Below, one piece after another: positions 5,937 through 57,897 of a stretch of DNA of 64,000 bases (position 1 is its first letter; the number at the start of each line of letters is the position of its first letter). A program made the position numbers and the translations under genes. The DNA comes from Lepidostoma basale. Taxonomy: Eukaryota > Arthropoda > Insecta > Trichoptera > Lepidostomatidae. The stretch lies in contig JAHDVF020000106.1 in NCBI GenBank assembly GCA_022606425.2, positions 1,550,001-1,614,000 on the forward strand, read 5' to 3'. The notes below the pieces were generated by a model, which searched no databases, was not told where the DNA came from, and saw only the letters and a program-made list of their open reading frames with translations.

Positions 5937-5975
5937 GACCAATGTTTCGAGGATCATTGCAGACTCCATTTTAAG
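5937..5975 (-). ncRNA. Eroded hammerhead-ribozyme-like motif
   Basis: The minus strand has GGAG/CTC stem II remnants around TCTGCAATGATC, then CGAAAC and ATTGGTC. This is a decayed copy of the motif at 23573-23611; its core is TTAAAA-like, not CTGAAGA. A second, inverted decayed copy may follow at about 5985-6020. Confidence 0.4.
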
Positions 5976-6817
5976 GATAATTGCTTTAGGATAGTCTGCA
6001 ACAGTTTCTGAAATGTCAAGGACATACTCAAGATACTAGAAAATTTGTAGGTATTAAACCTTATTGAATTATGTATTATTAAATGATATTTCTCTTCTAT
6101 CTGTATATATTTTTCTTGGTAACATGATAAATAAATACTCAATTGAGTAGTGCCAACAGTATTATGATTCGATAAAATTAATATTCAGAGTAAATGTTGT
6201 AAATGAATTGAGAGTAACCTTCCTTTTTTAAATTTCACCTACTATGCCCTAATTTTATTTTATTTTAATAGAAGAAATGTAAGAAAATTACTTGTTATTT
6301 ATTCTCAGATATGAAAATCATAATTTTTCTGGAACAATTTTTGTATGAATAAGAATCATTTAAAGATAAGATAAAAATGATATTAATCATTAAAGTACCT
6401 GCATAGGCAGCACTGAGATATCTTGTCTCTGGATTTGCACACACAAGAAACAACATGTATCGTCTGTGGCAGACAACTTTTGTGTTGTACGAGTAGATGC
6501 AACTCTTCTTTCCTTGAAATAAAACTAATCTTAAAATATTCTAGATTTATATTCAACTTTTTCCTAAACTGAGCTTAAACTTCAATAAAATATTGTGAAT
6601 TAAGGGAACAAATGCATCTTTTTAATTAGATTTTTGACCTTAATTAGAATTTAGAGTACCTGCTCATATATTAATGTAAAAAGTTCTCGGGGATTTATTA
6701 TTGCCCCAGTTGTATTCAGAAGTTTTGTGAATATGTTTTTTCAGCCATCTTGTTTTCGATGCTTAAACTATTCCATTTTGGATATTTGTGCCAATGAATA
6801 ATAGAAAATGTATATCC
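5976..6817. other. AT-rich intergenic sequence
   Basis: Apart from the possible second decayed hammerhead copy (5985-6020), I see no supported feature in this stretch. Confidence 0.4.
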
Positions 6818-7487
6818 AGTAGAACCTCGATTATCCGGACATTAACAACAGCGGATGTGCTAATTTGCATGTCCACTGTTTAAGTACGCGTTGGAATGCG
6901 TTTTATGCATTTGTTCCAACAATAAGTCCCAACAAGTAAAATATTGGTCAGTAGTCGTTGAAATTATCGTATTATATAATAAGGATGATCGTCTTTGTAT
7001 GTGGTTCATACAAAGACAATCATCTGGAGAGTCAATATCTGATCCATTATTGGGAAATTTCGAATGATGAGGAAATAATTAAAGAAATATCAGCCTCAGA
7101 GGAACACGATCAAGAAGACTAAGAAGAGATTTGCGAGGAGGGCGATATTGGTCCTACACATTCTGAAGCTTTTCAGTGTTTAGATGTCGCCATGAAGTGG
7201 TTTGAATGTTATGGAGAGTGTAATTCAGGACAACTTATATGTCTTAAAAGTATTCGCGATTTGGCAGCTTCAAAGAGAAAAGCTAGCTTTAAGCTCAAAT
7301 CGATAATTGATTTTTTTAATAAATAAAAATTTACAAGAAAGCTATTTATAAATCTAAATAAATAAAAACTATTCATACTGAATATACTTGTCTTTTCCTG
7401 GCAATTATGTATTTTTTCTATTATCCGGATTTGTCCTTATCCGAATTACCTGCATACCCAATTAGTCCGGATAATCGAGGTTCTACT
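6818..7487 (+). mobile_element. Internally deleted Tigger/pogo-like DNA transposon
   Basis: 23-bp perfect terminal inverted repeats are at 6818-6840 and 7465-7487 (AGTAGAACCTCGATTATCC outward). Inside is the C-terminal end of a Tigger-type transposase (7066-7326). The length (about 670 bp) is far below a full element, so most of the transposase is deleted. A TA duplication expected for this superfamily is not obvious. An 18-bp inverted repeat with one mismatch at 6984-7024 forms a hairpin inside the element. Confidence 0.85.
7066..7326 (+). pseudogene. Tigger/pogo transposase C-terminal remnant
   Basis: The frame reads HSEAFQCLDVAMKWFE, LICLKSIRDLAASKR and ends IIDFFNK-stop. The pattern of a paired-helix segment, an IRDLAA..KR stretch and a final ITDFF-like motif is typical for the end of Tigger/jerky-type transposases. 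One in-frame TAA follows DQED, and the DDE catalytic core is missing, so the protein cannot work. Confidence 0.8.
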
Positions 7488-7754
7488 AATATATGTTTTA
7501 TTCCTTATTGCAGATCCTTACGATTCGTGTTTTGATATATCATTTATTCAAAAGTTTTCTCTATCTCTAATATTACAGAAATATACTCAGGTGTCTCTTT
7601 AACGATGGTCTTTGGGCCGGTGTTGGCCACAACCAATGGATCAATGGACCTGGGATCCAAACTGCCATAATTTATTATGATGAGCTATCTAGGTCTTGGC
7701 CCTTGGAACTGAACGGATGAATCATTGTGGCCCTTGAGCTAGAAAGTTTAAAGA

Positions 7755-8471
7755 TCTTCTTCTTCTTCTTCAAGTGCCCTGTCGGGTCCCCCCAACGTTG
7801 GCGATCACCTCGGCGAACCTGTCCCTGTCCTGCGCCGCTCGGAACAGCTCCTCAACACTTCGGATGCCGGTCCACTCCCTCACGTTCCGCAGCCAGGACA
7901 TTTGTCTCCTTCCGGGCCCTCGGCGTCCCTCAATTTTTCCCTCCAATATCAGTTGGAGAAGGTGGTTCTTTTCCCCACGCAGTATATGACCCAGATATGA
8001 GATCTTTCGAACCTTGATAGTTGATAACAATTCCCTGTCAACTCTAGCTCGCCTCAGGACTTCGGTATTGGTAACCATGTCTGTCCAGGGAATTCTGAGC
8101 ATTCGGTGATGGAGCCACATTTCAAATGCTTCCAGTCTGTTCATTGAGTTAACTTTCAGGGTCCAAGTTTCACACCCGTACAATAAAACAGACCACACAT
8201 AGCATTTGATCATTCTCTGGCGGAGTTTCAAGTTTACGTTATCATTGCAGAAGAGTGATTTCATTTTATTAAACGTAGCTCTTGCTGCCTCGATTCTGCA
8301 TTTTATCTCTACATCTGGGTCAAGAGATTGCGTTAGTATGCTGCCGAGGTATTGAAATTTTTCCACCCTTTCAACATTACGGCCGTTCAAATGCAATACT
8401 GATCCACTGTAGTCAAGCCGTCCGAATGTCATCCAATGTTTAAAGATCTGCTCTAAATAAATGAAACTCAT
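7755..8471 (-). mobile_element. LINE-D ORF2 C-terminus, uninterrupted
   Basis: Minus-strand open frame of 233 codons, with WSVLLYGCETWTLKVNSMNR, LRIPWTDMVTNTEVLRRA, ISYLGHILRGEK and VIANVGGTRQGT. It continues the region after the reverse transcriptase palm (FNKMKSLFC, RQRMIKCY). The 3' end is a run of GAA units (minus) at about 7758-7770. It is the best preserved LINE-D copy here; catalytic RT motifs and the endonuclease are absent through 5' truncation. Confidence 0.85.
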
Positions 8472-9084
8472 TAAATTACCAAAACAAAAAAATATTTTAT
8501 TACTAAAAAAACAATATCAAATAATTAAATTATCTCAGAATATTAAAAAAAAATGTCTGTAGAATGATATACATATAATATTGGTGTATTCATAGTTACA
8601 TATTAAACATTTTTAGAGTTTTCTAATTGTCCATATTTCAAATATTTTATGAATGATTAGATGCATAAATAATAATTCTCTTTGCCTTTTCTTCTTATAT
8701 AAATATTACATATTTACTGTAGAATTGAATTTCATAATATTTATTCTATACATTGTAAAAAGATTTATGAACTTTAATACTATTTAATAAAAATTTAAGA
8801 ATCAGTTAAATGTTTTATTCTCACAAGACTATCCTCTCATAATTTGACAGTTCCTCGCTGTCGCTCAGCTCTAACCCAAAAACAATTTCCATTCCGTGCG
8901 GTGCCTATATTTTCAATCGTCTTCCTGAGAGTCTCAAATCTAACCAAATATATAAAGGGGTCAACCATAGATGTTGAAAATATTTCTTTCTACTACATAG
9001 AATTACAATAGATTTCCTAGTATATTAATTTCCTAGTATGTAAATTTAATAAGACAAATTTCCTAGTATACAAACAATTACTTA
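8472..9084. other. AT-rich intergenic sequence
   Basis: No gene or repeat that I can support; very AT-rich with poly(A/T) tracts. Confidence 0.4.
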
Positions 9085-9275
9085 CTTACAATTCTATTAC
9101 CATTCAATTTATTTAAAGAAACTCAATACTCGCCGACTGCATATTACAGATAGTCTTCCTGTTATTTTGAGTTCATTAAGGACTGAGTCGTTTGTTCTTT
9201 TTGCAATCCACGGTATCCTCAGCATGCGATGCCAACAATTTCAAAGCCGTCCATCCTGGCGCCGTCACGGGATTT
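9085..9275 (-). mobile_element. LINE remnant (LINE-I type)
   Basis: Minus strand reads WHRMLRIPWIAKRTNDSVL and NELKITGRLSVI, the LRIPW.AKRTN pattern that follows the RT domain in several insect LINEs. Related to but distinct from LINE-D. Stops and frameshifts upstream. Confidence 0.65.
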
Positions 9276-10254
9276 CATTATTCAAGTTTCAACAGCGTAA
9301 AGAAATATTGGGAATTGAGCGTGGCATAATTTTAATTTTGGTGGAATTGGAATTGGTGGTGGCTTTTTAACTACACCAAAAAACCAGTGGATTCTGTAAG
9401 GACCGATGATTTTAATAGTTATCTAAATCAAACTCCACAGAGTTGAATACATCTATATATAGTAAAAAATAATTCAAAAGTTTTACTGTTATTAGTATTG
9501 CTTAAAAGCCTAGGGACTAGAATTAACAGTGAATTATGGGAAAGGACTATAGAGGATAGACCTAGATGGAGAACATCAGAACATGAAGGCACGCAAGACT
9601 TCAAAGCACAACATAGAGACAATGCAGAAAGGAGAACCAAAGGAAAAGAGAGACCGTAGATATTACATTGCCAATGTCTTCCCCTGCTCTAGAAGCTCCA
9701 GACTTTGTGGATCCAGGATTGGACTCTTTAGCCATATGAGTACCATGGGACCAAGTACAGTATCCCACGGATACGAGGACAACCAATGATTGGTGACCGT
9801 TTACTGTAAATGGGATATCTAATCCGGAGCCAATTACCAAATTCAAATAATATTGAAATTGACATTTGCTATTCACTTTATTTATTATAATTTAAAAGTA
9901 CATTCCTAAAATAAATCCATTTACTTCATTAGTTCCATTACTGCTTGCATTAACCCATCTTCATCTCTTTCATTCCCAGGGTGCGACCTAAATTAATACT
10001 CCCCTTATCCCTGCCGTTAGTCCTATCAATAATGACCCCCCACGGACCACCAAGTTATCCACCTTCATCCAGCCCTTCACCTCTCTCTCTTTTAACTGAC
10101 GTGGATTTAAAAAAATACTCAACGCGTTCTCCACCACATAAGCCAGCTCTCCCTTTTCATCTCTACCCTTCTCCCCAGGTCCAATCAAGGTTGCGCTCAT
10201 CTCCATCGGCATCTAATAAATGATGATGTGAAAAATAGCAACTGACATCCGGAA
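9276..10254. other. Unassigned sequence, possibly old repeat
   Basis: No convincing coding region. Short open frames on both strands overlap one another (9583-9876, 9981-10223) without family features. Confidence 0.35.
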
Positions 10255-17470: not shown

Positions 17471-17532
17471 AATAAGCTAACACAACATTTATTGAATCTG
17501 AGGCCGTACGAAGTTCGCCGGGTCAGGTAGTT

Positions 17533-18215
17533 ATTATTAAAACATAATCCCTCAGACGATATAGTGTTAAGTGAAACATCCCCCCGCGCTGTAGTGTAAA
17601 GTGAAATGGATCCACGATAACGGCGCTATACAAATTAGCCTAATTATTACTATTAAAACATAATCCCTCAGACGATATAGTGTTAAGTGAAACATCACCC
17701 CGCGCTGTAGTGTAAAGTGAAATGGATCCACGATAACGGCGCTATACAAATTAGCCTAATTATTACTATTAAAACATAATCCCTCAGACGATATAGTGTT
17801 AAGTGAAACATCTCCCCGCGGTGTAGTGTTAAGTGAAATGGATTCACGATAACGGCGCTATACAAATTATCCTAATTATTACTATTAAAACAATCGCTCA
17901 GACGAAATAGTATTAAGTGAAACATCCCCCCGCGCTGTAGTTTAAAGTGAAATGGATTCACGAAAACGGGGCTATACAAATTAACATTATTATTACTATT
18001 AAAACATAATCCCTCAGACGATATAGTGTTAAGTGATACATCCCCCCACGCTGTAGTGTAAAGTGAAATGGATTCACGATAACGGCGCTATACAATTTAG
18101 CCTAATTATTACTATAAAAACATAATCCCTCAGACGATAGTGTTAAGTGAAACATCCCCCCGCGCTGTAGTGTTAAGTGAAATATCCCCTTTCAGACGGT
18201 ACAGCGGTAAGGTCG
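17533..18215 (+). repeat. 116-bp tandem array (satellite-like), five full units plus partial ends
   Basis: The marker CTCAGACG recurs at 17551, 17667, 17783, 17897, 18013 and 18129, so the period is 116, 116, 114, 116, 116. Each unit contains AAGTGAAACATC, CGCGCTGTAGTGTAAAGTG and the block AACGGCGCTATACAAATTAG. The last block is the 3' tail of the L2-like LINE at 25035-25078. Units differ by few substitutions, suggesting recent amplification. Confidence 0.9.
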
Positions 18216-23424: not shown

Positions 23425-23495
23425 CTAACTAAACATCACGCCGTTTCACCTAAGGGGTAGGCAGAAGGAATGATCCGCTACACCCTTCTTTCGAA
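23425..23495 (-). mobile_element. LINE-A 3' end fragment
   Basis: ACTAACTAAACATCACGCC with the following AGGGGTAGGCAGAAGGAATG, then cut off by the palindromic element. Confidence 0.7.
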
Positions 23496-23572
23496 TAATT
23501 GCGTAGATTTTCACGGTTGGCAGCAATATGTTTTGTGTGATTTTGGGTAACATCTTGTGATTTCTCGTTCAC

Positions 23573-23611
23573 GACCGAAGTTTCGGAGATCGTTGCAGTC
23601 TCCATCTTCAG
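23573..23611 (-). ncRNA. Hammerhead-ribozyme-like motif
   Basis: Minus strand order: CTGAAGA core, one extra T, stem II GGAG/CTCC with an 11-base loop, GAA, stem III AC-TTCG-GT, cleavage base C. The core agrees with the CUGANGA consensus. Stem I pairing is weak here. Confidence 0.55.
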
Positions 23612-23722
23612 GGTAATGTGGTGGTGGTAATAAGTGTGGTATGAGTTGTGTCTGCTAAGGTAACTCTCTGGTGTACCATGTCGCCGGCAGTGTGTCACAC
23701 TTATTACCACCACCACATTACC

Positions 23723-23761
23723 TTGAAGATGGAGTCTGCAGCGAATTCCGAAACTTCGGTC
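23723..23761 (+). ncRNA. Hammerhead-ribozyme-like motif (inverted partner)
   Basis: TTGAAGA core (C3 changed to T), extra T, stem II GGA/TCC, GAA, AC-TTCG-GT, C at 23761. Confidence 0.5.
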
Positions 23762-23885
23762 GAGAAGGAGAAATCACACGTTGTTACCCAAAATCACACA
23801 AAACATACTTCTTTCGCTTCCTCAACATTCATACAATCGATTTCTTCGACTCCTCACGTGTCGGCGGTTTTTCCACGGCTTCTCT

Positions 23886-24370
23886 TTCCACCCCCAACAC
23901 CCTTATGTATGGAAGCGAAGCATGGAACTGGCAGAAGAAGGATGAGAGCAGAATAAATGCGGTAGAGATGAGGTCCCTAAGACGTATGTGTGGTAGAACG
24001 ATGTACGACAGAATCTCAAATGCTGATATTAGGAAGGAGTGTAGAGCGAAAGAAGGTATTATGAACAAAATTATGAAAGGTTCGCTTCGTTGGTTCGGAC
24101 ATATGGAGCGCATGGGTGAAGAAAGAATGGTTAAAAAAGTATACGTTAACAATGTAAATGGAGTAAGGAATCGAGGTAGACCGAGGAAAACATGGCATGA
24201 CCAAATCAATCAAATATTAAAAGTTGGTCATGTCAGAAGCCGGAAGAATCGACGTGCGTGTATGACTCGATGTATGAATGTGGAGGAGGCTAGAGAGGTG
24301 TGCCAGGATAGAGTAGTGTGGCGGTCCATTCTCTCTGCCTACCCCTGCGGGGAAACGACGTGATGGTTTG
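23886..24370 (+). mobile_element. LINE-A C-terminus, best preserved copy
   Basis: Open frame from about 23886 to the stop at 24361: TLMYGSEAWNWQKKDESRIN, VEMRSLRRMCGRTMYDRIS, LRWFGHMERMGEERMVKKVY, GRPRKTWHDQINQILK, CMNVEEAREVCQDRVVW, RSILSAYPCGETT-stop, then the 3' end CGTGATGGTTTGTTG. The region corresponds to the end of an RTE/BovB-like endonuclease-reverse transcriptase; the RT palm and endonuclease are truncated away. The start of the 230-codon frame (23671) lies in the palindromic repeat and is not part of the element. Confidence 0.9.
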
Positions 24371-25300: not shown

Positions 25301-25675
25301 CTTTAGATTCACTTACGTACAAGTATCATATACTGTTTTTGATTATATGATTGATTCGATTGTTTACGTTTTATCCTCGATCTATACACCTTTATCGTCA
25401 CACGTGATGGTATGCAGAATGCCTATTAAGGTAAACCGTTCATAATGACGCTTCCATATTACAGATGTGTCATTCAATTGTTAGAGGATTATTCACAGAT
25501 GACGTTTGCACATTCCAATCATTTTAAATATCGACTGTGCTAAATAGCACAATAGAGTTCTTGTGCTAACCCTTACGCACGAAATTGCAGTATGGAGCTA
25601 GAGAGGATGAATAACGAGAATATGACATGCTAGAGAATTTAAATCACTATGGATAACTTACTAACTAACTAACAT

Positions 25676-25837
25676 AATCAAATGATTTTACTGAAATCTC
25701 TTGATGGAAGTTCATTTTAAATAATAATTAAATAAAACGATGTTTTTTAACTCTCGATGCCAGCGAGCCTGGCGAAACCGGTCGCTGTCTAAATAAAGAC
25801 AAAAGTGTTAAAAAACATCGTTTTATTTAATTATTAT

Positions 25838-25845
<8 letters not shown>
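25676..25845. repeat. Foldback element with a central hammerhead-like motif
   Basis: Inverted arms at 25727-25751 and 25807-25836 (TTAAATAAAACGATGTTTTT outward). The arm sequence recurs at 33951-34055, 51080-51105 and 52830-52860. The outer part ACTGAAATCTCTTGATGGAAG is shared with 34073-34095 in inverted orientation. Confidence 0.75.
25751..25783 (+). ncRNA. Hammerhead-like motif, core mutated
   Basis: CTCTCGA (consensus CTGANGA broken), extra T, perfect 5-bp stem II GCCAG/CTGGC (25759-63 and 25769-73), GAA, palindromic stem III ACCGGT, cleavage base C. Confidence 0.5.
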
Positions 25846-26470
<625 letters not shown>

Positions 26471-26487: not shown

Positions 26488-26542
26488 TTTTGCAACCATG
26501 ACGAAGCTCCGACGGGAACGAAACCGGTTGGTTTTAACAAAA
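26488..26542 (+). ncRNA. Hammerhead-ribozyme-like motif with internal-loop stem I
   Basis: Stem I: TTTTG (26488-92) with CAAAA (26538-42), an internal loop C versus TTAA, then AACC (26494-97) with GGTT (26530-33). Core ATGACGA (C3 changed to A), extra A, stem II GCTCC/GGAAC (one mismatch) with loop GACG, GAA, palindromic stem III ACCGGT, cleavage base T at 26529. A stem I with an internal loop beside the core is the known layout of type I hammerheads. Confidence 0.6.
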
Positions 26543-36258: not shown

Positions 36259-38973
36259 GACTTTCAACCCCAGAGGGAGGTCGTCCGGGCCAGAAGGAAA
36301 CTCGCCAGTTCCGGCCCAGTCCGCAAGGAGCTCGTGACGTTGCCCGCCTATCTGGAAATAAAGCAAAAATATAAAGACGCGATCAGACACGCGAAGATTA
36401 ACAGCTGGAAAGAGTTCTGCTGCATTCAAAATAAAGAGACGGTCTGGTCGTCTGTACAGAGGATCATGAAGAGCGCCCGGCGTCCGCCTCCCGCCACCCT
36501 CAAATTCGGGAATAACACCACCGACTCCGCGCTTGAGACGGCGACCGCACTTCTGGAACATTTTTTCCCCGCAGACGTAACTTCACGCGAAACGCCCGAG
36601 CAGCTCTGCATTCGCCGAAACGACTACGAGTCACTGCTCGCGGAGGACGACGTCCCATTCGCGGCTGAGGAGATCTCTAGAGTGCTGAATAACATGGATC
36701 CGACCAGAGCGCCGGGACGAGACCATCTCACCTCGGACATCTGCTCGAGAGCTTTCGCGACCGCCCCCGAGGTGCTGACCGGCATCTTCAATGCCTGTCT
36801 GCGTTTGGGGACCTTTCCGATTCTGTGGAAAATAGCGAGAGTCAAAGTCATTCCGAAGCCCAATAAGGACGACTACGGAGAAGTCGCCTCCTACAGACCC
36901 CTGGGACTGCTTCCTGTGCTGGGAAGGACGCTGGAAAAGCTCCTGATCAACCGCATCTCCTGGAGATTCGGAGGACGGGGAGCGCTCAGCGTCCGCCAGT
37001 ACGGATTCACCCGGCAGATGGGCACTGAGGACGCGATGGTATCTGCGGTCGGCCTTATCAAGAAAGCAAACAGCGAGGGGTGTCACGCTTGTGTGATATC
37101 CCTAGACATCAAAGGGGCGTTCGACAACGCCTGGTGGCCCCATCTGCTGTCGCAGCTCGCCCGACATGACTGTCCGAGAAACGTCTACGGCGTCTTCAAA
37201 GACTACCTCTCGGACAGGACTGTGGAGATACGACACGCAGGGGCCTACTCGAGCAGGTCGACGAGCAAGGGCTGCATCCAGAGATCAGCCTGCGGACCGG
37301 TTCTCTGGAACGTAGCGCTGGACGAGCTTCTGCAGCTGCCGTATCGCGAGGAAGTCCACATCCAGGCTTTCGCCGACGACGTGCTACTGATCGTGAGGCA
37401 CCGAGACGTCGGAGCCGTGGAAGCGATAGTCAACGAAACACTCGAACAGATCACCTCCTGGGGGGAACGAGTCAAATTGCAATTCTCAGAGGAGAAAACT
37501 AAGGCTTTGTTCATCACGAGAAGAAAGGCGTCAGCCCCTAACCTCGTGATGAACGGGAAGCCTCTCCCGCTGTCCAAGGACTGCAAGGTTCTGGGGATTG
37601 TATTAGACGACACTCTCAACTGGAGTAAACACGTGGACATGGCGTGCAAAAAGGCCGTCAATTACACCAAGAAGCTGACGTGCATGGCGAAGGCCACATG
37701 GGGACTCAGCCCGGAGGTACTGCGGGCCCTTTATATCGGCGTGGTGGAGCCGACCATCACCTATGCGGCGAGCGTCTGGGCAGAAGCGGCATGCAGGAAT
37801 AACATCCAGCTGAAGCTGAACAGGGTGCAGAGAACGATAGGCATTAGAATTTGTAAGGCCTATAGGACCGTCTCTCTGACCTCTGTTCAAGCGATAGCAG
37901 ACCTGATGCCGCTGGACCTGAGGCTCAAGGAGCTCAAAATGATAGGTGATGTCAAACGAAACGGCTCGATCGAACTCTTACCGGGGGACCGCGGGTACCA
38001 GGGTGTCGTTAAGTGGACGGAGCTGCCGCATCCTGTCGAGCAGACCGGGGAATTGACGGCCCACCCTGAGACATACAGAAGAGATGCATTCCCCTCTGAC
38101 GAAATTGATATTTACACAGATGGAAGCAAGACCGAAGGAAAGGTTGGCGCGGCGTTCGCAGTGTTTGGCGCAGCCGGAGAGTTAAAGTGTAGGAAGCTGC
38201 CCATGGCGGATTACTGCACGGTATTCCAGGCCGAACTCTTCGCCATCGCAGAGGCCCTGAGATGGGTCGTCGCCGACACCTCGTGGAGGAAAGTCAACGT
38301 GTTGACCGACTGCATGAGCGCGACGAAGGCTCTGAGCGACGGCGCGCCCACCAATCCGATGGTCTTTCAGATTCAAAAGTCTTCCAAAATCCTTAGAGAC
38401 CGAGGTACCGAGTGCAGCTTCTTGTGGATCAGAGGTCACAACGGGCTGGAAGGGAACGAAAGAGCAGATGAGCTGGCTAAAGCGGCCGCCCTTAGGGTCA
38501 AAACTGCCAAGCTCTACTCTGAGTTTCCTCTCAGCTACGCAAAGCGCACTATCAGAGAACACACGAATCAGCTGTGGGAAGAGAGATACGAGAACAGCGC
38601 CACCGGAAGCGGGACCAAGAATTTTCTCCCCTCCATAAGAGATGCGAAAGAGCTGAGGAAGAGAATAGCACCTTCGTTCCAGCTCTCGCAAATTCTCACT
38701 GGGCATGGTGCCACACTCTCGTATCTACACAGATTCAAGATCAAAGATTCACCTCACTGTCCCTGTGACTCACAAACAGACCAAACAATCGAACACGTTA
38801 TCATCCATTGCCCCATCTACACGCGAGAGAGATGGAAACTGGAGAAGGAGTGTCAAAGAAGAGACATCCACATCACAGATCTCCCGGCCATCCTCCGCAA
38901 CAAAGATACACTATGCAGTTTCGTGGACTTCGCAACCACGGTGGTGGATCGGTTGCGGGTCAGTAATAAATAA
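36259..38973 (+). CDS. R1/I-like LINE ORF2: reverse transcriptase, RNase H and C-terminal CCHC (5'-truncated)
   Basis: About 900 codons stay open; the first in-frame ATG-like start is a GTG (36334), and the frame is open upstream to about 36259, where the element begins, so no native start exists. Order: RT fingers with SYRPLGLLPVLGRTLEKL (36895-36950); QYGFTRQMGTEDA; CVISLDIKGAFDNAWW; a region C-IQ-RS at 37273-37287; palm FADD (37369-37380); thumb with LGIVLDDTLNWSKHV; RNase H with Asp 38119, Glu 38233, Asp 38308 and Asp 38467, the complete D-E-D-D set; then a CxC...H...C zinc knuckle (38758-38820) and SNK-stop. The endonuclease domain is missing, so this copy cannot complete target-primed integration by itself. 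In RT motif B' the usual Gly of QGS is Arg (AGA, 37282-37284), which would probably impair polymerase function. Much GC-richer than the surroundings, as in young LINE insertions. Confidence 0.9.
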   Translation, partial: DFQPQREVVRARRKLASSGPVRKELVTLPAYLEIKQKYKDAIRHAKINSWKEFCCIQNKETVWSSVQRIMKSARRPPPATLKFGNNTTDSALETATALLEHFFPADVTSRETPEQLCIRRNDYESLLAEDDVPFAAEEISRVLNNMDPTRAPGRDHLTSDICSRAFATAPEVLTGIFNACLRLGTFPILWKIARVKVIPKPNKDDYGEVASYRPLGLLPVLGRTLEKLLINRISWRFGGRGALSVRQYGFTRQMGTEDAMVSAVGLIKKANSEGCHACVISLDIKGAFDNAWWPHLLSQLARHDCPRNVYGVFKDYLSDRTVEIRHAGAYSSRSTSKGCIQRSACGPVLWNVALDELLQLPYREEVHIQAFADDVLLIVRHRDVGAVEAIVNETLEQITSWGERVKLQFSEEKTKALFITRRKASAPNLVMNGKPLPLSKDCKVLGIVLDDTLNWSKHVDMACKKAVNYTKKLTCMAKATWGLSPEVLRALYIGVVEPTITYAASVWAEAACRNNIQLKLNRVQRTIGIRICKAYRTVSLTSVQAIADLMPLDLRLKELKMIGDVKRNGSIELLPGDRGYQGVVKWTELPHPVEQTGELTAHPETYRRDAFPSDEIDIYTDGSKTEGKVGAAFAVFGAAGELKCRKLPMADYCTVFQAELFAIAEALRWVVADTSWRKVNVLTDCMSATKALSDGAPTNPMVFQIQKSSKILRDRGTECSFLWIRGHNGLEGNERADELAKAAALRVKTAKLYSEFPLSYAKRTIREHTNQLWEERYENSATGSGTKNFLPSIRDAKELRKRIAPSFQLSQILTGHGATLSYLHRFKIKDSPHCPCDSQTDQTIEHVIIHCPIYTRERWKLEKECQRRDIHITDLPAILRNKDTLCSFVDFATTVVDRLRVSNK

Positions 38974-40460: not shown

Positions 40461-41142
40461 ACTCCGGAAAAACTACATCAATTTTAAAAAAATAACTGTT
40501 TCTATTCAATATCTTACATTCGGAGCCTAATTTTCCCAGTATTTTTCTATAAAGAACGTCCATTTTTTTTAAGTCTTACGAACTCGATTTTTAATTCGAC
40601 TTACATAATGTAATTAATTAAACACGTACACCCATATTACGCATGTAAAATTTTACTATTCCGACATCCTGTATGAATTAAAAATATATATAAAAAAATA
40701 ACAAAAACTGAATTACGATTTGACAGTAATGAATTTAATGTATGTGGCTCTGGCGAGGAATCCGAGATCGCCTCCGATCAGCGAGGCGTTTTCAAATCAA
40801 AGTGATACGATTGTATGATACGTTCGGGATGGGGCCTCATATTATTAACTGGGTGAGTGGAACGGTGGATAAAAATATGCAATTATAAAGAAAGATTTGG
40901 GCCTTGAGCCCAGGCCGTCCCCGTGAGGAGCCCCCTTGGGTTAACGCTCGCGGTACCCCCTTTCAGCGCGGGGCCGAGCCCATTAACAATGCAGTTTTTT
41001 TTCATTACACCCGACATTTATAGACGGCGCTGCTTAGAATACGTCTTATGCTAATGCGTGAGTCTGCCAGGACTCGCGGGGCCCACTCGGGGAAAGGGTA
41101 AGAGTTTGACTATCGGCTTTCGCAGGATTATGACACCCGCCC
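40461..41142. other. Non-repetitive sequence with a GC-rich block
   Basis: 40900-41130 is GC-rich (GGCCGTCCCCGTGAGGAGCC) and unique in the window. No gene recognised; could be a conserved noncoding element. Confidence 0.3.
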
Positions 41143-41381
41143 CATTTCGTGGCAGAGTGGTAAGAGCTCTGACTTCCATACAGAAGGTCCCGGGTTCGAT
41201 TCCCGGCGATGGCAGTGTGATTGTCACACTATCTTTGGTCTGGTGTAGAATTCACGTTACAATAAAATGGCGATAGATTTGCTACCTATCACATGTCACG
41301 AGAATCAATATAATAGGTATAAAATAAAATTGTATACAGTAATTGGGTTCAAACGACCTGTTGTATACGTAAAAAAAAATA
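41143..41381 (+). mobile_element. tRNA-derived SINE, type 2, best preserved
   Basis: A-box TGGCAGAGTGGTAAGAGC, B-box GGTTCGATTCCCGG (Pol III internal promoter), then body GGTGTAGAATTCACG, AAAATGGCGATAGATTTGC, then 3' part TTGTATACAGTAATTGGGTT, CCTGTTGTATACG and A9 (41371-41379). The head folds like a tRNA but lies within a repeat, so it is not a functional tRNA gene. Transcribed, if at all, by RNA polymerase III; mobilised by LINE enzymes. Confidence 0.85.
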
Positions 41382-42625: not shown

Positions 42626-42683
42626 TTACACAAACACCAGAAGATGGTAACAAGCTATCGAAACCGGTCGACGTTAAAGTGGA
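42626..42683 (+). ncRNA. Hammerhead-ribozyme-like motif
   Basis: Core CAGAAGA (42638-44; U4 changed), extra T, stem II GGTA/TATC, GAA, palindromic ACCGGT, cleavage base C (42669). Stem I: C37-G70, internal loop, AAC with GTT (42673-75). Confidence 0.5.
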
Positions 42684-42715: not shown

Positions 42716-42932
42716 TTATATACTTTGTATACAACACTCACATTTATTTAAAAACTAAAAATTAAATATCAAACATGTTTTGGATTTACCAGCCCTTCAT
42801 CAATGATATTATATAAATATTTAAATATTATAAAATTGTTTACAAATATGGTCAGTTTTGACGGATGTTATTTTTATTAATTTATTATTGTTATTTTTAA
42901 AATAAATGTGAGTGTTGTATACAAAGTATATA
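42716..42932. repeat. Element with inverted ends
   Basis: TATACTTTGTATACAACACT (42719-) is inverted at 42911-42932. It holds the minus-strand hammerhead-like motif at 42765-42810. Confidence 0.75.
42765..42810 (-). ncRNA. Hammerhead-ribozyme-like motif with perfect 7-bp stem I
   Basis: Minus strand: stem I AATATCA (42804-10) pairs fully with TGATATT (42765-71). Core TTGATGA (C3 to T), extra A, weak stem II GGG...TCC, AAA instead of GAA, palindromic ACATGT, cleavage base T. Confidence 0.55.
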
Positions 42933-43331: not shown

Positions 43332-43423
43332 ACGTGTAGGTTCTTTCTTTACCATTCTTATTTCAAACTGTTAAATTTAAAAAAATATATTTTGTGCATC
43401 CCAATTGTATTTTTATTTTAGGC

Positions 43424-43459
43424 GACAGCTGTTTCGTCAACCTATGTTGACATCATCAG
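43424..43459 (-). ncRNA. Hammerhead-ribozyme-like motif
   Basis: Minus strand: canonical core CTGATGA, extra T, perfect 6-bp stem II GTCAAC/GTTGAC with loop ATAG, GAA, 8-base palindrome ACAGCTGT as stem III, cleavage base C. Stem I is poor. Confidence 0.6.
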
Positions 43460-43556
43460 GTGTTACAATAATATATCAAATTAAAATTTTCAAAATTGAC
43501 ATAGGAACAAATACACATAAAGGTTTGAAAAATCACGAAAATTTGACATTTGATAT

Positions 43557-43592
43557 ATGATGATGTCAACATAGGTTGACGAAACAGCTGTC
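43557..43592 (+). ncRNA. Hammerhead-ribozyme-like motif (inverted partner)
   Basis: ATGATGA core (C3 to A), extra T, perfect GTCAAC/GTTGAC, GAA, ACAGCTGT, C. Confidence 0.55.
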
Positions 43593-43674
43593 GCCTTAAA
43601 TAAATATACAATTGTGATACATAAAATAACGATTTTTTTTAATTTAACAAAACAATGGACTATTCTTATTTCAT

Positions 43675-44700: not shown

Positions 44701-45490
44701 ACTGACAGGATGGACCGCCATTCTGCTATGTCCTGACATATCTCCCAAGCTTCATCTTCTTTCATACACCATAACACGAATGCTCGCTCGATTTTTCCCA
44801 CTTCGAATGTGGCCACTTTTCAATATTTGATATATTTGGTCATGCCACGCATTCCTTCCTTTCTTTTTCCACTCACACTGCTCGTATACATCGTTTTAAC
44901 CATTCTCTCATCCATTCGTTCCATATGTCCAAACCGTCTCAGGATTCCTCTTTTAATTTTTATTTATTTATTTCATTTATTTATTTAAATACAAATATCC
45001 AAGATTTTTTTTATGAATTATAACACCTTTTTCCTTTGTCGAAAATAATTATAAGTATTATATTTAATATAATATTTTTACTTATGATGCAATCTTCTGC
45101 CTTACATTTCTTCCTTATTTCGTCATTCGTTATACCTATACCGTATTTTATTTTACGCGACAGCTGTTTCATCAACCAATGTTGACATCATCAGGGGTTA
45201 CAATAATATATCAAATGTCAAATTTTCGTGATTTTTCGAAAATTTATATGTATTTGTCAAAACAATCTACTATCATATATCGTTTTCCCGCACATTGTTC
45301 TCAGTGATTTCATTTCTACGGCATTTATCCAACTTTCATCCTTTTTTCTCAACTCCAAGCTTCACTTTCATACATATGGGTTGACACTATAACTCGATTG
45401 TGTACTGCCATCGTTGCTTCAGTGGATATATTTCTATTTGCAGTGATGACTTTGAGAGCGTCATTTATTTTGTTCCCAATAAAACGTGCG
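44701..45490 (-). mobile_element. LINE-A copy with two interruptions
   Basis: Minus strand parts 44701-44960, 45075-45138 and 45272-45490, in order ([32 protein letters not shown]; then VEMKSLRTMCGKTIYD; then NKINDALKVITANRNISTEA). 44960-45075 is an AT-rich insert and 45139-45271 a hammerhead-bearing element. Confidence 0.75.
45159..45194 (-). ncRNA. Hammerhead-ribozyme-like motif
   Basis: Minus strand: canonical CTGATGA, extra T, stem II GTCAAC/GTTGAT with loop ATTG, GAA, ACAGCTGT, C. Single copy without inverted partner. Confidence 0.55.
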
Positions 45491-49044: not shown

Positions 49045-49073
49045 ACTAAGTATAAACCACTTTATTTGAATTA

Positions 49074-49121
49074 GTAGAGCCAATCGGTTTCACTCTGTAG
49101 CGAGCTTCCTCAGGGCTATAC
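49074..49121 (-). ncRNA. Hammerhead-ribozyme-like motif with 8-bp stem I
   Basis: Minus strand: stem I GTATAGCC pairs with GGCTCTAC (one T-C mismatch in eight). Core CTGAGGA fits CUGANGA exactly; extra A; stem II GCTC/GAGT with loop GCTACA; GAA; stem III ACCGAT (one base from a palindrome); cleavage base T. Confidence 0.65.
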
Positions 49122-49128
49122 AGTTTGT

Positions 49129-49160
49129 CTGAGGAAGTTCGCTACAGAGTGAAACCGATT
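49129..49160 (+). ncRNA. Hammerhead-ribozyme-like motif (inverted partner)
   Basis: Canonical CTGAGGA, extra A, GTTC/GAGT stem II with the same GCTACA loop, GAA, ACCGAT, T. Upstream stem I strand is shared with the partner's and cannot pair in both at once. Confidence 0.55.
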
Positions 49161-49178
49161 GGCCCTACTAATTCAAAT

Positions 49179-50999: not shown

Positions 51000-51110
51000 T
51001 TTAATAGACTGGTCTGTCGATGCCAGCCCACCTGGCAAATCGGTCGCTGTCGGATAAAAAGACAAAAGTGGAAGTAGTTTTTAAAAACATCGTTATATTT
51101 CATTAACATT
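51000..51110 (+). repeat. Hammerhead-bearing element, one arm, eroded
   Basis: CTGTCGA core (51014-51020; A6 to T), T, GCCAG/CTGGC stem II, then a one-base deletion in GAAACCGGTC, then GACAAAAGTGGAAGTAG and AAAAACATCG, as in the 25676 family. Confidence 0.5.
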
Positions 51111-52730: not shown

Positions 52731-52925
52731 TTCCACTTTTGTCTTATTTCGATAGTGAACGGTTTCGCCGGGCTAGCTGACATTGACTGACTGGTCGCTA
52801 TCGGAAATAAGGCCAAAGTGGAAGTAGTTATTTAAAAACATCGTTTTATTTAATTATTGTTTAAAATGAACTTTCTTCGAGAGATTTCAGTCTCATTAAA
52901 TTTTACATTATTGTTCAAGAAATGA
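52731..52925. repeat. Foldback element, hammerhead core lost
   Basis: Left arm TTCCACTTTTGTCTTATTTC (52731-) and right arm GAAATAAGGCCAAAGTGGAA. The centre keeps CGGTTTCGCCGGGC (minus GAAACCG) but not the CTGANGA core. Continues to AAACATCGTTTTATTTAATT. Confidence 0.7.
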
Positions 52926-53489: not shown

Positions 53490-53870
53490 TCTGATGATGT
53501 GGACCAGCTGTCCCTCCATCTCTTAGGTGGTCTACCAGATGGACGGTGTCCGGAGGGGGTTTCATGGGCGGTTGCATATACGAGTCTGTCACTATCTATT
53601 CTGGCTACATGGTCCCTTCAGTATCTTCTCTTGGATCTATTCCACCGTACGATATCCTCATTTTCACAAGTTTTTCGTACGTCTGCGCTACGGACACGAT
53701 CTCGGAGAGTTTTTTTTCTTCTAGTAATTGATCTTAGGACCTTCATTTCAGATGTTCTAAGCAGACCCTTGGTTCGTACAGTATCGGCCCGCGTCTCTAC
53801 AGCATACGCTATGATAGGTCGCACGCATGTCTTATAGATTCGTACCTTGCTGTCAAAACGCAGCATATAT
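53490..53870 (-). mobile_element. LINE-C C-terminus, diverged
   Basis: Minus: SKVRIYKTCVRPIIAYAVET, GLLRTSEMKVLRSITRRKKT, LRDRVRSADVRKTCENEDIV, RWNRSKRRYWRDHVA-like, then PPDGRPPKRWRDSW-like. An insertion RRKKT is unusual for the family. Confidence 0.8.
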
Positions 53871-54067
53871 TTTTAATAATCGTTAGTTACACCTATTTCG
53901 GTTTTATCGTATTAACCCTCTAGATTAGGAGTGGCCATATTTTTTGACAAGTTTTTAAAATTGGTAAATTAAAGTGACATTAAATGAATTATCCAAAGAG
54001 CTAGGGCTAATAAGAGAAAAGGCAATGTTGGTAATCAGAATAGCAGACAGGGTGAGAAACACCACTA

Positions 54068-54453
54068 TAAAGATCCATTTACACTGGACAGTCATCAGCC
54101 GATACCGACACGTCACGAAAAAAATAACCTTGAATCTCACCGACTCGTTCGGCGTGATCGCCGTCGGGGGTTGCCGAAGAAAGCACCTACCTACATAAAA
54201 TTGACACTTAATAAAAATGATCAATATTGATATATAGGATGTGTTTCCTACAGTATATAATTCTTTTTTACTACCATTTAAATTCGCCGTGGAGAAGGTG
54301 ATTATCTCGGGTATTTAAATATAATATGAACGGAATCGGCATTAATTAAAAGTAACAAGACGCCATCAAAACAAACAAAACGATTATTTGCTCAACGCAA
54401 ACGCGTGACGTGTCGGTATCGGCTGATAACTGTCCAGTATAAATGGACCTTTA
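54068..54453. mobile_element. 386-bp MITE with long TIRs
   Basis: Ends TAAAGATCCATTTACACTGG and the following CAGCCGATACCGACACGTCA are inverted at 54404-54453 with few mismatches (about 48-bp arms). No coding region. Target duplication not clear. Confidence 0.8.
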
Positions 54454-54464
54454 GAGCCCGAACA

Positions 54465-54755
54465 TCATGGAGTGTCGGACATCATCGGAAGAGTGGCAGC
54501 GCTGAAATGGCGCTGGGCAGGCCATGTTGCTCGCACCTCTGACCATGGATGGACAAAACGCCTCCTTTGCTAGTGTCCTAGAACTGCGACCCGACCCTAA
54601 GATGTATCCAACTACGATGGAGGGACGACATTGAGACCGCCGGTACGACATGGACGCGTGTTGCCTAGGATCGACAGACATGGAAGCAGATGGAGGAGGC
54701 CTACGTCCAGGAGTGGACGGATTTAGGCTGATGATGATGAAGAAAGCAACATATC
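54465..54755 (+). mobile_element. LINE-E C-terminus, degenerate
   Basis: VAALKWRWAGHVARTSD-like (frameshifted), RTATRP-like, LQLRWRDDIETAG, TWKQMEEAYVQEWTDLG-stop, then GATGATGATG. Confidence 0.75.
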
Positions 54756-55599
54756 TAGGGTTGGTGACACACAGTGCGGTTATTCCTGTTACAACCCCTT
54801 CTACCCCTACCCTCGCCCACACACATACTCGTATATTTTGCAGGTAAATCTTGTATCGGAATATTGGTGCCATACAAAATGTTCTTGAAATTGCGACTTA
54901 TTAGCCGCACAGCGATTTTTTTTTAATTTCATTTTTATCAATGCATAAAATTTTATTAATTACTATTAAGTATCAATTAATATTAAGTATCGTTATTTTC
55001 TGTTACTCTCCTTATGTAAAAAAGTTACTTGTGTTAAGAAGAGGAGCATACTGAAACTAAATTCATCAAAGCGAATTAAATGCGAACGATTTTGTTTTCT
55101 TGTTGCCGCCCTCTTAATGTAAGTATTTTTTTTAATGTGTGTTTTTTTTTAATTACGTGTCTTTTAAAATACTCCCGATGGAGTTTCACCGCAGGTCAGC
55201 ACTAGATTGCATAATTGAGGTAGTGAATAAATGAGTAATGTGATCTGCAGAGGTTCCTGGTCATCGCATGGAATGGCAACAAAAAAACGGCACAATGCTC
55301 ACGGTATGCGGTACCACCCCGTCCATTATACCTGTGGAGTACATATTTAGCGGTAGTCCACGCGCCGGCGCTGACCTTTCGTGACCACAACACCGATACG
55401 GGTCAAGTTCAGCGCTGCGGGGGTCACTCGGTGTCCGGATCCAGTTTTTTTTTTGTGTGTGCTTGTTTTCGGTTTCACGAGCCGCCAATGTAGGCGTGGA
55501 TTGATTCACACGTCCATTCAATGAGAAATAATCGAAATATTTTTTATCTTCGTTATTAATTTTGTAATCAAAATTATCTTTATTAGGGGCAGAATAAAT
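54756..55599. other. Intergenic sequence
   Basis: AT-rich to 55150, GC-richer at 55180-55520; an 86-codon minus frame there has no family features. Confidence 0.35.
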
Positions 55600-55960
55600 A
55601 GCTAACTAACAAACCATCACGCCGTCTCCCTGAAGGGGTACTGATATACTTCTTTCCTTTCCTCAACATTCATACATCGTGTCATACACGCACGTCGATT
55701 TCTTCGACTCCTCACGTGGCCGAAATTCAATAATTTTGTGCCACGTTTTCCTCATTTTTGTAAAATTTAATTTCGTTTATTTAATTCGAGTTCTAGTTCC
55801 TTTTACATCGTTAACCATTACCATTCTTTCTTCATTCATTATTTGCGTGTGATCCTTTCATTCGCTCTGCATATTCACTTCTTACATTTTCATTCGACAC
55901 TATCATACACAGATTTTTTCACGCACTTGTCTAAGAGGTCTCTTTTTTATGCATTTATTC
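55600..55960 (-). mobile_element. LINE-A remnant
   Basis: Minus, from CTAACAAACCATCACGCCG; short insertions break it at 55755-55800. Confidence 0.75.
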
Positions 55961-56215
55961 TGCTTTTGATTTTATTTATAATATCCAAATGCTACATCTG
56001 GGCCCATAAAAACTTTTCAAATATTAAAGCGGAAGGAAGCATTATGAACAAATATATTATAATATATAATTAATACATATGAAAACGTATGTTTTCATAT
56101 GCTTCTAATGCCTTAGAAGGCCGAAAGATGTCATTCCCATAAAATATAATAAAACTTCTAGAAAACGGACTTTTCTTTCGTATTAATTTTATTATTCACT
56201 TTTTGGGAGGGTTGC

Positions 56216-56251
56216 GACAGCTGTTTCGCCAACCAATGTTGACATCATTAG
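56216..56251 (-). ncRNA. Hammerhead-ribozyme-like motif
   Basis: Minus: core CTAATGA (G5 to A), extra T, stem II GTCAAC/GTTGGC, GAA, ACAGCTGT, C. Confidence 0.5.
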
Positions 56252-56280
56252 GTGTTACAGACAGCTCGTTGTTGTAACAT

Positions 56281-56316
56281 CTGATGATGCCAACATCGGT
56301 TGTCGAAACAGCTGTC
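56281..56316 (+). ncRNA. Hammerhead-ribozyme-like motif (inverted partner)
   Basis: Canonical CTGATGA, extra T, GCCAAC/GTTGTC (one mismatch), GAA, ACAGCTGT, C. CAAC after the cleavage base can pair with GTTG upstream across a bulge. Confidence 0.55.
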
Positions 56317-56490
56317 GCAACACACTAAAAAAGTGCATAAAAAAGGTGATATTATAACAGCGTTATAAATTTTAACAGTTAACAATATATAAAAGTATTT
56401 TGAATAATTTTAGATAAACTTAAGGCTTTAATTCCATAATGACGAATTTTTATGAATTAAAACACTGTTTTTCCACTTTTGAGTTTATTT

Positions 56491-56534
56491 TTCTCGACAT
56501 GTTTCGAAGGCTTACACCTTCATCATCGGGAGAA
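56491..56534 (-). ncRNA. Hammerhead-ribozyme-like motif, all three stems
   Basis: Minus: stem I TTCTC/GAGAA (5 bp, perfect); core CCGATGA (U4 to C); extra T; stem II GAAGG/CCTTC (5 bp, perfect) with loop TGTAAG; GAA; stem III palindrome ACATGT; cleavage base C. The most complete architecture in the window. Confidence 0.65.
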
Positions 56535-56555
56535 CGATATAAACTGTTTATATCG

Positions 56556-56599
56556 TTCTCCCGATGATGAAGGTGTTAGCCTTCGAAACACGTCGAGAA
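56556..56599 (+). ncRNA. Hammerhead-ribozyme-like motif, all three stems (inverted partner)
   Basis: TTCTC/GAGAA stem I, CCGATGA, T, GAAGG/CCTTC with loop TGTTAG, GAA, ACACGT (2-bp stem III with AC loop), C. Confidence 0.6.
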
Positions 56600-56650
56600 A
56601 AATAAACTCAAAAGTGGAAAGAACAGTGTTTTAATTCATGAAAATTCGTA

Positions 56651-57224
56651 TTTTTAATAATGTAATTTAATTCTCCACAAATTCGTTGCTTCATACGAAA
56701 GTAATACATTTTTATTTAATTTTTGCTGAATAAAGTTCGCTGAAAGAATTTGATTAATGCAAGCGTATTCATTTGACATAATAACACTTTCATATTCCTC
56801 GCGTAGCGAAAAAAAATCACAATAAAACTGCGGGTCATCGGATATTATTCAAATGTTCACCCATATTCTATGATATGGCCGGGATGCAAATGGGCTCGCC
56901 ATTGTACCATCTGAAAAGTAAACTAGGGCAGTCCGTCTAGGGGTCAGGCGCTGTTATCATTCCACTACGTCTGGCGTACTTTATTTTCGTTCGTCTTCAC
57001 TGCCGCCTATGATGCATAGGAACGTTTATATAATACTCTGTGACGTAACGCTGCCGTATCGATTGTTGTAGATTCTCACGGCTCGCACGTGAACAGACGT
57101 GCGTTTAATTCTACTTTATTCATATTAACAGGTTGACTGCCGATCACGCGTTTGTGCGGGATGAGTGCGCAGCGTGTCGATAACGCAATTACGCGTGATT
57201 TATATTTTTGATTTATCTAAATAA
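56651..57224. other. Non-repetitive sequence
   Basis: No gene supported; 56880-57180 moderately GC-rich and unique. Confidence 0.3.
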
Positions 57225-57595
57225 CTAACTGACCATCACGCCGTCTCCCCGAAGGGGTAGGCAGAAAGAATGGACTACCACACTTTTATTTCCTGACATG
57301 TTTCTCTCGCTTCCTTCGCTATCTCGCTTCGCCGACATTCAATATTTGATTTATTTGATCGTACCACGTTTTCCTCGGTCTTCCTCTATTTCTGGTTCCA
57401 TTTAATCGTTAACATATAATTTTTTTACCATTCTTTCTTCATTCAATTCTTTCCATATGTCCAAACCATCTTAATGATCCTTTCATTATTTTGTTCATGA
57501 CACCATCATTCGCACCGCATTCACTTCTTATATTTTCATTCGACACCCTATCATACACAGAGTATCCACACATTTGTCTAAGAGATCTCTTTCTT
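57225..57595 (-). mobile_element. LINE-A C-terminal remnant
   Basis: Minus from ACCATCACGCCGTCTCCCC; RGRPRKTWYDQINQILNVG, SLRWFGHME, then SNENIRSECGANDGVMN and RLRYSVYDRVSNE. Confidence 0.8.
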
Positions 57596-57676
57596 TGGTT
57601 TATCTATTTATATTTTTTTCCTTTCTTTGTAACAACACTCTAATTTTACATACACATAAAATTAAATTAAATTAAA

Positions 57677-57719
57677 TTACAAACACGTTTCATAACACAG
57701 AAGTCCTTCATTAGTGTAA
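57677..57719 (-). ncRNA. Hammerhead-ribozyme-like motif with 5-bp stem I
   Basis: Minus: stem I TTACA/TGTAA perfect; core CTAATGA (G5 to A); extra A; stem II eroded; GAA; ACGTGT; T. Confidence 0.5.
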
Positions 57720-57851
57720 ATAAAAATATAATATATACAAAATAAATATTTTTTTTTATTATTATCAATGTGGTTAGTTTAACATTTTAACATCTGTCAA
57801 AACAGATCACATTTATGATAAAAAATTATTTATATATTTGTTTTATATAAT

Positions 57852-57897
57852 TTACCCTGATGAAGGGCTTCTATGTCCCGAAACATGTTTGTAATTT
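57852..57897 (+). ncRNA. Hammerhead-ribozyme-like motif
   Basis: Canonical CTGATGA, extra A, stem II GGG/CCC with loop CTTCTATGT, GAA, palindrome ACATGT, T. Stem I TTAC with GTAA after one C-T mismatch next to the core. Confidence 0.6.

Follow-up and report, generated by a model that had tools for sequence, protein, structure and literature searches.

The stretch analyzed here, called the window throughout, comprises 64,000 nucleotides (nt) of Lepidostoma basale (Insecta, Trichoptera; GenBank assembly GCA_022606425.2, contig JAHDVF020000106.1, positions 1,550,001 to 1,614,000 of the forward strand). It holds a series of short motifs that resemble the hammerhead ribozyme, many of them in inverted pairs, and our subject is their relation to Penelope-like elements (PLEs), in which minimal type I hammerhead motifs have reportedly been described (by Cervera and de la Pena in 2014 and by Lunse, Weinberg and Breaker in 2017). 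A first-pass annotation of the window had pointed out these motifs and taken them for parts of non-autonomous, hammerhead-bearing retroelements; we inspected all 19 of its motif coordinates and sorted the motifs into families by eye.

Hammerhead-like motifs in the window

The inspection gave eight families where at least five with unrelated stem II sequences had been proposed: F1 (5975, 23611, and 23723), F2 (25751 and 51014), F3 and F4 (one motif each, 26498 and 42638), F5 (42803, 57714, and 57857), F6 (43459, 43557, 45194, 56251, and 56281), F7 (49113 and 49129), and F8 (56529 and 56561). Each motif runs in the order CTGANGA, an extra A or T, a stem II hairpin, GAAA, an A-C..G-T tip, and then C or T, and the stem III tip is often palindromic (ACAGCTGT, ACATGT, ACCGGT). 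The extra base (A or U in RNA) follows A9 in all eight window families, and where it is U the core reads CTGANG-ATG. The core had been described as CTGANGA or one change from it; seven of the 19 motifs have exactly CTGANGA, the other 12 having one or more changes; among the substitutions, A6 is U in F2 and U4 is C in F8. Stem I is contiguous over 4–5 bp in F2, F3, F7, and F8 and over 0–1 bp in F1, F4, F5, and F6. In the list that follows, "pattern" denotes a sequence-only search and "model" a custom covariance model, both described below; features without a strand are unstranded, and TSD stands for target-site duplication.

5937–5975, minus strand: decayed F1-like motif, core CTTAAAA (model, E 0.005)
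23485–23493: TSD CTTCTTTCG of the F1 pair, left copy; exact 9-nt repeat lying 33 nt beyond the left arm end
23494–23807: F1 head-to-head insertion; 33-nt tail 23494–23526, arms 23527–23638 and 23696–23807
23573–23611, minus strand: hammerhead-like motif F1, left arm (pattern; model, E 4e-9)
23723–23761, plus strand: hammerhead-like motif F1, right arm, C3 is T (pattern and model)
23808–23816: TSD CTTCTTTCG, right copy, abutting the right arm end
25663–25673 and 25838–25848: flank repeat AACTAACTAAC of the F2 insertion (by eye; a simple repeat, weak)
25674–25837: F2 single-motif insertion (comparison with the PLE locus L096)
25674–25750: F2 left arm; consists of inverted tail alone, with the 47-nt long tail at 25674–25720
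25751–25837: F2 right arm; motif plus short end
25751–25783, plus strand: hammerhead-like motif F2, the family of the parent-type PLE loci L096 and L097 (model, E 0.43)
26498–26529, plus strand: hammerhead-like motif F3, C3 is A, stem I 4 bp (pattern; missed by the model)
42638–42669, plus strand: hammerhead-like motif F4, U4 is A (pattern; model, E 0.16)
42772–42803, minus strand: decayed F5 motif; inverted tails, motif in one arm only, by eye (missed by the model)
43354–43365: TSD ATTCTTATTTCA of the F6 pair, left copy (exact 12-nt repeat)
43366–43661: F6 head-to-head insertion, short left arm (arm comparison)
43424–43459, minus strand: hammerhead-like motif F6, left arm (pattern; model, E 2e-7)
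43557–43592, plus strand: hammerhead-like motif F6, right arm, C3 is A (pattern and model)
43662–43673: TSD ATTCTTATTTCA, right copy (exact 12-nt repeat)
45159–45194, minus strand: hammerhead-like motif F6, no partner arm seen (pattern and model)
49077–49113, minus strand: hammerhead-like motif F7, left arm, stem I 4 bp (pattern; model, E 1.6)
49129–49160, plus strand: hammerhead-like motif F7, right arm (pattern; missed by the model)
51014–51045, plus strand: hammerhead-like motif F2, A6 changed to T, which the PLE loci share, and an altered GAA (missed by the model)
56188–56344: F6-related head-to-head pair; arms 56188–56263 and 56270–56344, no clear duplication
56216–56251, minus strand: hammerhead-like motif, F6-related, left arm, G5 is A (pattern and model)
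56281–56316, plus strand: hammerhead-like motif, F6-related, right arm, stem II with one mismatch (pattern and model)
56438–56652: F8 head-to-head pair; 107-nt arms without spacer, 8-nt flank repeat only
56496–56529, minus strand: hammerhead-like motif F8, left arm, C in place of U4, stem I of 5 bp (pattern and model)
56561–56594, plus strand: hammerhead-like motif F8, right arm, C in place of U4 (pattern and model)
57608–57955: F5 head-to-head pair; arms 57608–57780 and 57800–57955, no duplication found
57682–57714, minus strand: hammerhead-like motif F5, left arm, decayed (pattern; missed by the model)
57857–57889, plus strand: hammerhead-like motif F5, right arm (pattern; model, E 0.03)

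The motifs had been said to lie mostly in inverted pairs, and six same-family pairs do, all with the left motif on the minus and the right motif on the plus strand, but those at 45159, 25751, and 42765 are single and appear to be the one motif kept from a former or asymmetric pair. In the F6 insertion at 43366–43661, the right arm ends in what are apparently the last 12 nt of a long tail after an internal deletion (tail end placed by eye). An exact-repeat search found no convincing flank repeat at 56188–56344, 56438–56652, 49064–49178, or 57608–57955; since the same search returned repeats of at least 9 nt at 23 of 400 random window positions, a lone flank repeat in the window carries only moderate weight.

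Searched with a sequence-only pattern that tolerates one core mismatch and calls for W after A9 and for GAAAC, the window gave 22 matches, against a shuffle mean of 3.1 and maximum of 11; 15 of these matches are motifs already annotated, two are shifted readings of two of them, and five belong to an unrelated 116-bp tandem repeat. Eleven matches carried a stem of at least 4 bp that the pattern does not request, compared with 0.08 on average in shuffled sequence (maximum 1; 60 shuffles). A first scan that did require a stem, made with both spacings, gave 13 hits when the extra base was included (12 shuffles averaged 2.5) and seven when it was not (shuffle mean 2.8), none of the seven with GAAAC. 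Across the surveyed genome (768.8 Mb in 1,572 contigs), CTGANGAWGN{8,18}CGAAACN{2,6}GTC matched 12,875 + 12,728 times (about 25,600) and its backwards control 0 + 1 times, so the repeated occurrence of hammerhead-like motifs stands. The genome families fit a conserved core with an N-U-H cleavage site, although the genome pattern itself demands that core. The tandem repeat is a minisatellite of 5.7 copies at 17531–18183, whose five CAGACGA(T/A)..GAAAC places have no stem and are false pattern matches.

Covariance models, which the annotation had offered as a check, gave a divided answer. The Rfam hammerhead models had no match in the window, neither at the gathering threshold nor at E ≤ 10, perhaps owing to the tiny stem III together with the extra A/U after A9, whereas a custom model built on the same genome recovered 14 of the 19 motifs at E ≤ 5 and 11 at E < 0.05. 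That model was made from 16 representatives of copies outside the window, with loops N-padded, and included F1 and F6 plus relatives of F5 and F7; at E ≤ 5 it missed the window motifs 26498, 42803, 49129, 51014, and 57714, and it added three matches elsewhere in the window (E 0.29–2.2). Rfam microRNA-like matches on several inverted repeats of the window lie under the gathering scores and fit the hairpins.

The expectation of compensatory stem changes was clearly borne out. Over the eight family representatives, a list selected by motif, stem II formed 30 of 32 pairs, a value equaled by 2 of 40,320 permutations; because of that selection, the stem II test was repeated on unselected genome copies. 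In the first 100 genome matches listed, all from two contigs, three further stem II pairs that the pattern does not require were formed in 276 of 300 cells, and the 35 distinct stem types gave 81 of 105 pairs, compared with 44.9 on average after permutation, the highest of 20,000 permutations reaching 64. Among the 16 N-padded representatives, stem II was 91.3% paired, with at most 47% of cells paired in slid versions, and over the whole structure both sides had changed in 31 cells, compared with 10.4 in shuffles. By these comparisons the window motifs are confirmed as genuine hammerhead-ribozyme-like structures, and their architecture and core point to the minimal type I hammerhead of PLEs, with cleavage predicted. 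A conserved short peptide read from the core ATG was considered and rejected: frames differ between families, several stop within 4–13 codons, and the families with A after A9 have no ATG.

Ten of the 19 motifs have an AAAGTG box no more than 80 nt downstream (0.9 expected), at 25802, 26565, 42676, 49063, 51065, 56202, 56330, 56479, 56611, and 57923. It is present in seven of the eight families, F1 being the one without it, in otherwise unrelated surroundings, and is possibly a reverse transcription start or a protein signal.

Penelope-like loci and the layout of the inverted pairs

The genome contains at least 62 matches to GIY-YIG, and two loci (L096 and L097) each have one open reading frame (ORF) of 757 residues with RVT_1 (E ~1e-13) and GIY-YIG (E ~5e-5 to 7e-5), flanked by 456-nt inverted arms with 99% complementarity. 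An 89-nt F2 unit, the query for which was assembled from the window motif and L097, is found in both arms of both loci at 98.9–100% identity, and the A6-to-U change of F2 is shared by both. Window positions 25751–25837 differ from an L096 arm by one base and a 7-nt gap over 87 nt, and positions 25674–25750, in the opposite direction, are identical to the L096 3' arm over 77 nt, including the 47-nt tail, which sits on the 3' arm in both L096 and L097. Assignment to the Penelope-like class, as first proposed, thus gains a direct match to inverted pseudo-long terminal repeats (pseudo-LTRs) of loci with reverse transcriptase (RT) and GIY-YIG. A perfect (AT)106 repeat occupies 25960–26172, about 120 bp from the F2 insertion, and AT repeats also adjoin L096 and L097.

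The suggested search for a Penelope RT with GIY-YIG beside the same motif was successful for a second family, F9, at four of 30 GIY-YIG loci (L069, L079, L081, and L083), in which the motif follows on the same strand, 567–632 nt beyond the point where the GIY-YIG match begins; at a fifth (L070), an F6-like motif follows ~1,060 nt past that point. Six more of the 30 have a motif elsewhere and 19 have none. Since F2 and F9 motifs accompany RT/GIY-YIG loci, the motifs of these two families are shown to be parts of PLE pseudo-LTRs, and we infer the same for the remaining families. The window copies themselves are protein-less: GIY-YIG was found in none of 121 scanned ORFs, RVT_1 gave one weak match (E 0.001), a pattern search of the window returned no PLE-like motif, and no convincing PLE ORF was found there.

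The arrangement of the motifs was studied in depth in one family of this one genome, F6, which has 15,850 genome copies at no more than three mismatches. We used a sample of 48 copies and then 88 of the first 100 copies listed, all with a perfect 37-nt motif in one arm, and called arms by BLAST to one reference. An upstream inverted (head-to-head) partner was present within 700 nt in 27 of the 48 copies, and each of the other three arrangements in three, at a partner score cut-off of 60 that was chosen after the table had been seen. Across all families, neighboring motifs no more than 1 kb apart at the loci examined were head-to-head in 23 cases, tail-to-tail in six, and on the same strand in seven.

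F6 arms end sharply at one of two places: the short end (...AATTTAACAGTTTA) lies ~94 nt beyond the motif's C3, and the long end (...CCAAAACAATGGACTAT) lies ~138 nt beyond it, a difference of about 44 nt. One long and one short arm occur together in 42 of 51 scored pairs (25 long-short and 17 short-long), where independence predicts 50% (binomial p 1.5e-6). Exact flanking direct repeats, 9–15 nt in length, reach at least 9 nt in 20 of the 51 pairs, compared with 2.2% of mismatched flanks, and at least 10 nt in 16, compared with 1.0%; an earlier, looser version of this test gave 11 of 24 pairs against 14.5%. All 20 pairs with repeats of at least 9 nt are of the one-long-one-short type (classes counted by hand). 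In another family, a pair at L056 has arms identical over 86 nt, a 43-nt tail on one side only, and a 12-nt repeat, and the same layout recurs in the window in the F1 pair (9-nt repeat, 33-nt tail), the F6 pair at 43366–43661 (12-nt repeat), and F2. This layout, often head-to-head with an optional tail and TSD, is that of PLE pseudo-LTRs.

The inner limits of the arms are less regular. Of 58 left arms, 24 start at 0–26 nt upstream of C3 and seven further upstream, five start up to 6 nt inside the motif, and 22 start further inside or beyond. The predicted ribozyme cut has no arm start within 2 nt of it and three at 3–4 nt past it, by which we rejected ribozyme-cleaved templates as the main source of arms. 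Five arms start at GAAA or within 3 nt after it, possibly where RT stops at stem II.

Proposed two-ended priming and its competitors

We favor, at a probability of roughly 0.8, the reading that the motifs are carried in short protein-less insertions produced by PLE machinery through two-ended priming. A PLE protein would cut both target strands with a stagger, and each cut strand would prime reverse transcription at a start site of its own, the two sites being neighbors near the 5' end of the PLE RNA. The resulting cDNAs would proceed toward that end across the motif, often halting within ~26 nt upstream of it, and the joining of their far ends would give a head-to-head inverted pair. The ribozyme motif would be a passenger, its cleavage not setting the arm ends. 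Because the start sites would be near the RNA 5' end, the products would consist only of leader, hammerhead motif, and ~90–130 nt, and thousands of protein-less inverted pairs could arise without a self-propagating family. A PLE protein from Anolis cuts and extends both strands, and its RT starts at two internal sites (PMC11167929; this and the other PMC reports are cited from partial text); the Anolis PLE tail is the stretch between those two sites, and hammerhead mutants insert normally in vitro (PMC11167929). Whether PLE integration is two-ended by design, with each of two adjacent start sites used once, one per target strand, is in our estimate evenly balanced; perhaps one start site belongs to each subunit of a dimeric PLE enzyme.

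Several observations weigh against two-ended priming. Nine of the 51 scored pairs are equal-armed (six short-short and three long-long), none with a flank repeat of at least 8 nt; no left arm was found for 30 of the 88 F6 copies, and seven more were unscorable; and 13 of the 36 neighboring motif pairs are not head-to-head. The frames of L096 and L097 have no evident start, and the F6 parent ORF was not recovered. In the Anolis experiments in vitro, as given in the text cited, top and bottom strands show no difference in start site (PMC11167929). The inverted arm and the ORF meet at an identical inner junction in L096 and L097, from which it follows that some inverted structures were copied onward as units or duplicated.

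That junction also bears on a self-propagating foldback or retrozyme-like element, in which the whole pair would be transcribed, possibly circularized by the hammerhead, and moved as a unit; the huge copy number suits such an element as well. By eye, however, the centers (inner junctions) of F6 pairs differ, spacers and arm lengths vary, and the left arms avoid the predicted cut as described, while the arrangement is inverted rather than the short tandem repeats described for retrozymes in PMC7229834. Direct-orientation tandem or dimeric hammerheads, by which a retrozyme is recognized, are not what we see, as pairs are mostly head-to-head in the F6 sample and at the loci examined. With centers of their own, an inverted layout, and ends off the ribozyme cut, the F6 pairs look like separate PLE-made insertions, and we consider propagation as a unit quite improbable; the first-pass view of non-autonomous retroelements is not supported in the sense of a self-propagating, retrozyme-like family. 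Self-priming on an antisense template, in which a single cDNA folds back and copies itself so that the first arm templates the second, was inferred for bdelloid Penelope from palindromic head-to-head junctions (PMC3846280). It would account for 5' extents that agree within 5 nt in 18 of 51 pairs and for an arm divergence, a weak test of a common template, of 0.096 within pairs versus 0.111 between loci, 30 of 40 pairs falling below the between-loci mean. Yet it predicts matching arms, and the two arms use different outer sites in 42 of 51 pairs and have 5' extents more than 15 nt apart in 27, some of which later deletions could have caused; we therefore give self-priming only about one chance in ten's worth of credence, that is, a minor one.

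A cut-and-paste DNA transposon of the miniature inverted-repeat (MITE) kind would also leave short inverted repeats between flanking duplications. Here the ends are unequal, duplication length and centers vary, and the parent-type loci of F2 encode RT and GIY-YIG, and we rejected this class for F2 and F6, in which neither symmetric terminal inverted repeats nor a fixed TSD length was found; its likelihood is close to nil. A different doubt concerns the motif itself, which might be a conserved protein- or RT-binding hairpin of the PLE RNA and not a catalytic ribozyme. The F6 motif folds alternatively into one long imperfect hairpin, the core has an extra nucleotide as well as the changes of F2 (also in both ORF-bearing loci) and F8 noted above, and the Anolis hammerhead cleaves only with protein and is dispensable for insertion (PMC11167929). 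Against this, CTGANGA, GAAA, and the N-U-H site persist in combination in families whose stem II sequences are unrelated, and published cleavage by a PLE hammerhead is lost with C3G or G8C (PMC11167929). A purely binding role is unlikely, though it has real points in its favor.

Surroundings, known systems, and meaning

Among other features of the window, a long interspersed nuclear element (LINE) at 36334–38973 on the plus strand has one frame of 879 residues with RT and RNase H and is R1-like by the names of its relatives, the best unnamed ones being 63–74% identical and the named ones coming from butterflies and moths. Fragments of one and the same LINE-like reading (MCGRTMYDRISN / MCGYSVYDRVSN) at 23900–24360 and ~57480–57600 adjoin two hammerhead pairs and are perhaps preferred or nested targets. 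A tRNA-Gly (TCC) lies at 41142–41213 on the plus strand. Outside the genome, a scan of IMG/VR with the exact F6 pattern gave no matches and one with a generic pattern gave 17 stretches, mostly without a stem. Three viral contigs chosen by pattern (L008:2498–2535, L002:3684–3722, and L010:704–739) have CTGATGAT with a stem and GAAAC and score 26–33 bits with the custom model; Rfam at E ≤ 5 calls no hammerhead at these three places, and L002 has a weak Rfam type II hammerhead match elsewhere on the contig. A literature search for hammerhead with Lepidoptera returned nothing relevant by title.

The motifs share with published PLE hammerheads the core order, a near-absent stem III, a pseudo-LTR location, and thousands of dispersed copies (PMC7761336, PMC6155905). 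They may differ in the extra A/U that the window families carry between A9 and stem II, and they do differ in the core substitutions of F2 and F8. As in Poseidon PAc of Anolis carolinensis, motif C3 and G8 precede the start codon, A9-U-G reading as ATG in the A9-U families, a tail is present, and two neighboring RT start sites and extension of both strands are likely (PMC11167929). The ends in L. basale fall ~88 and ~132 nt past that ATG, whereas RT starts at 111–118 nt in PAc, and genomic pairs here mostly show one use of each site per insertion, which is absent from the PAc account in the text cited (PMC11167929). Bdelloid Penelope likewise has head-to-head inverted pseudo-LTRs, with a 31-nt tail on one and TSDs of 8–10 bp, but at low copy number, in contrast to the large ORF-less pair population here, and the arm asymmetry we observe counts against the self-priming model proposed there (PMC3846280). 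Animal non-LTR retrozymes resemble our elements in their type I hammerheads, non-coding nature, and the idea of dimers, and differ in having tandem rather than inverted repeats (PMC7229834).

How PLEs integrate, why their head-to-head repeats have a one-sided tail, and what the hammerhead does are questions left open in the available parts of PMC11167929, PMC3846280, and PMC7761336, and tens of thousands of compact copies in one genome allow statistical tests of PLE integration. The rule of one arm per start site, together with the target duplication, sets a precise expectation for the reaction and counts against self-priming. If two-ended priming is correct, head-to-head pseudo-LTR pairs would be the normal product of integration and not an aberration, the hammerhead would be a passenger in that step, and the thousands of pairs in such genomes would be a fossil record of the integration reaction. 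This suggests that many such genomic hammerhead motifs are integration by-products and not selected ribozymes.

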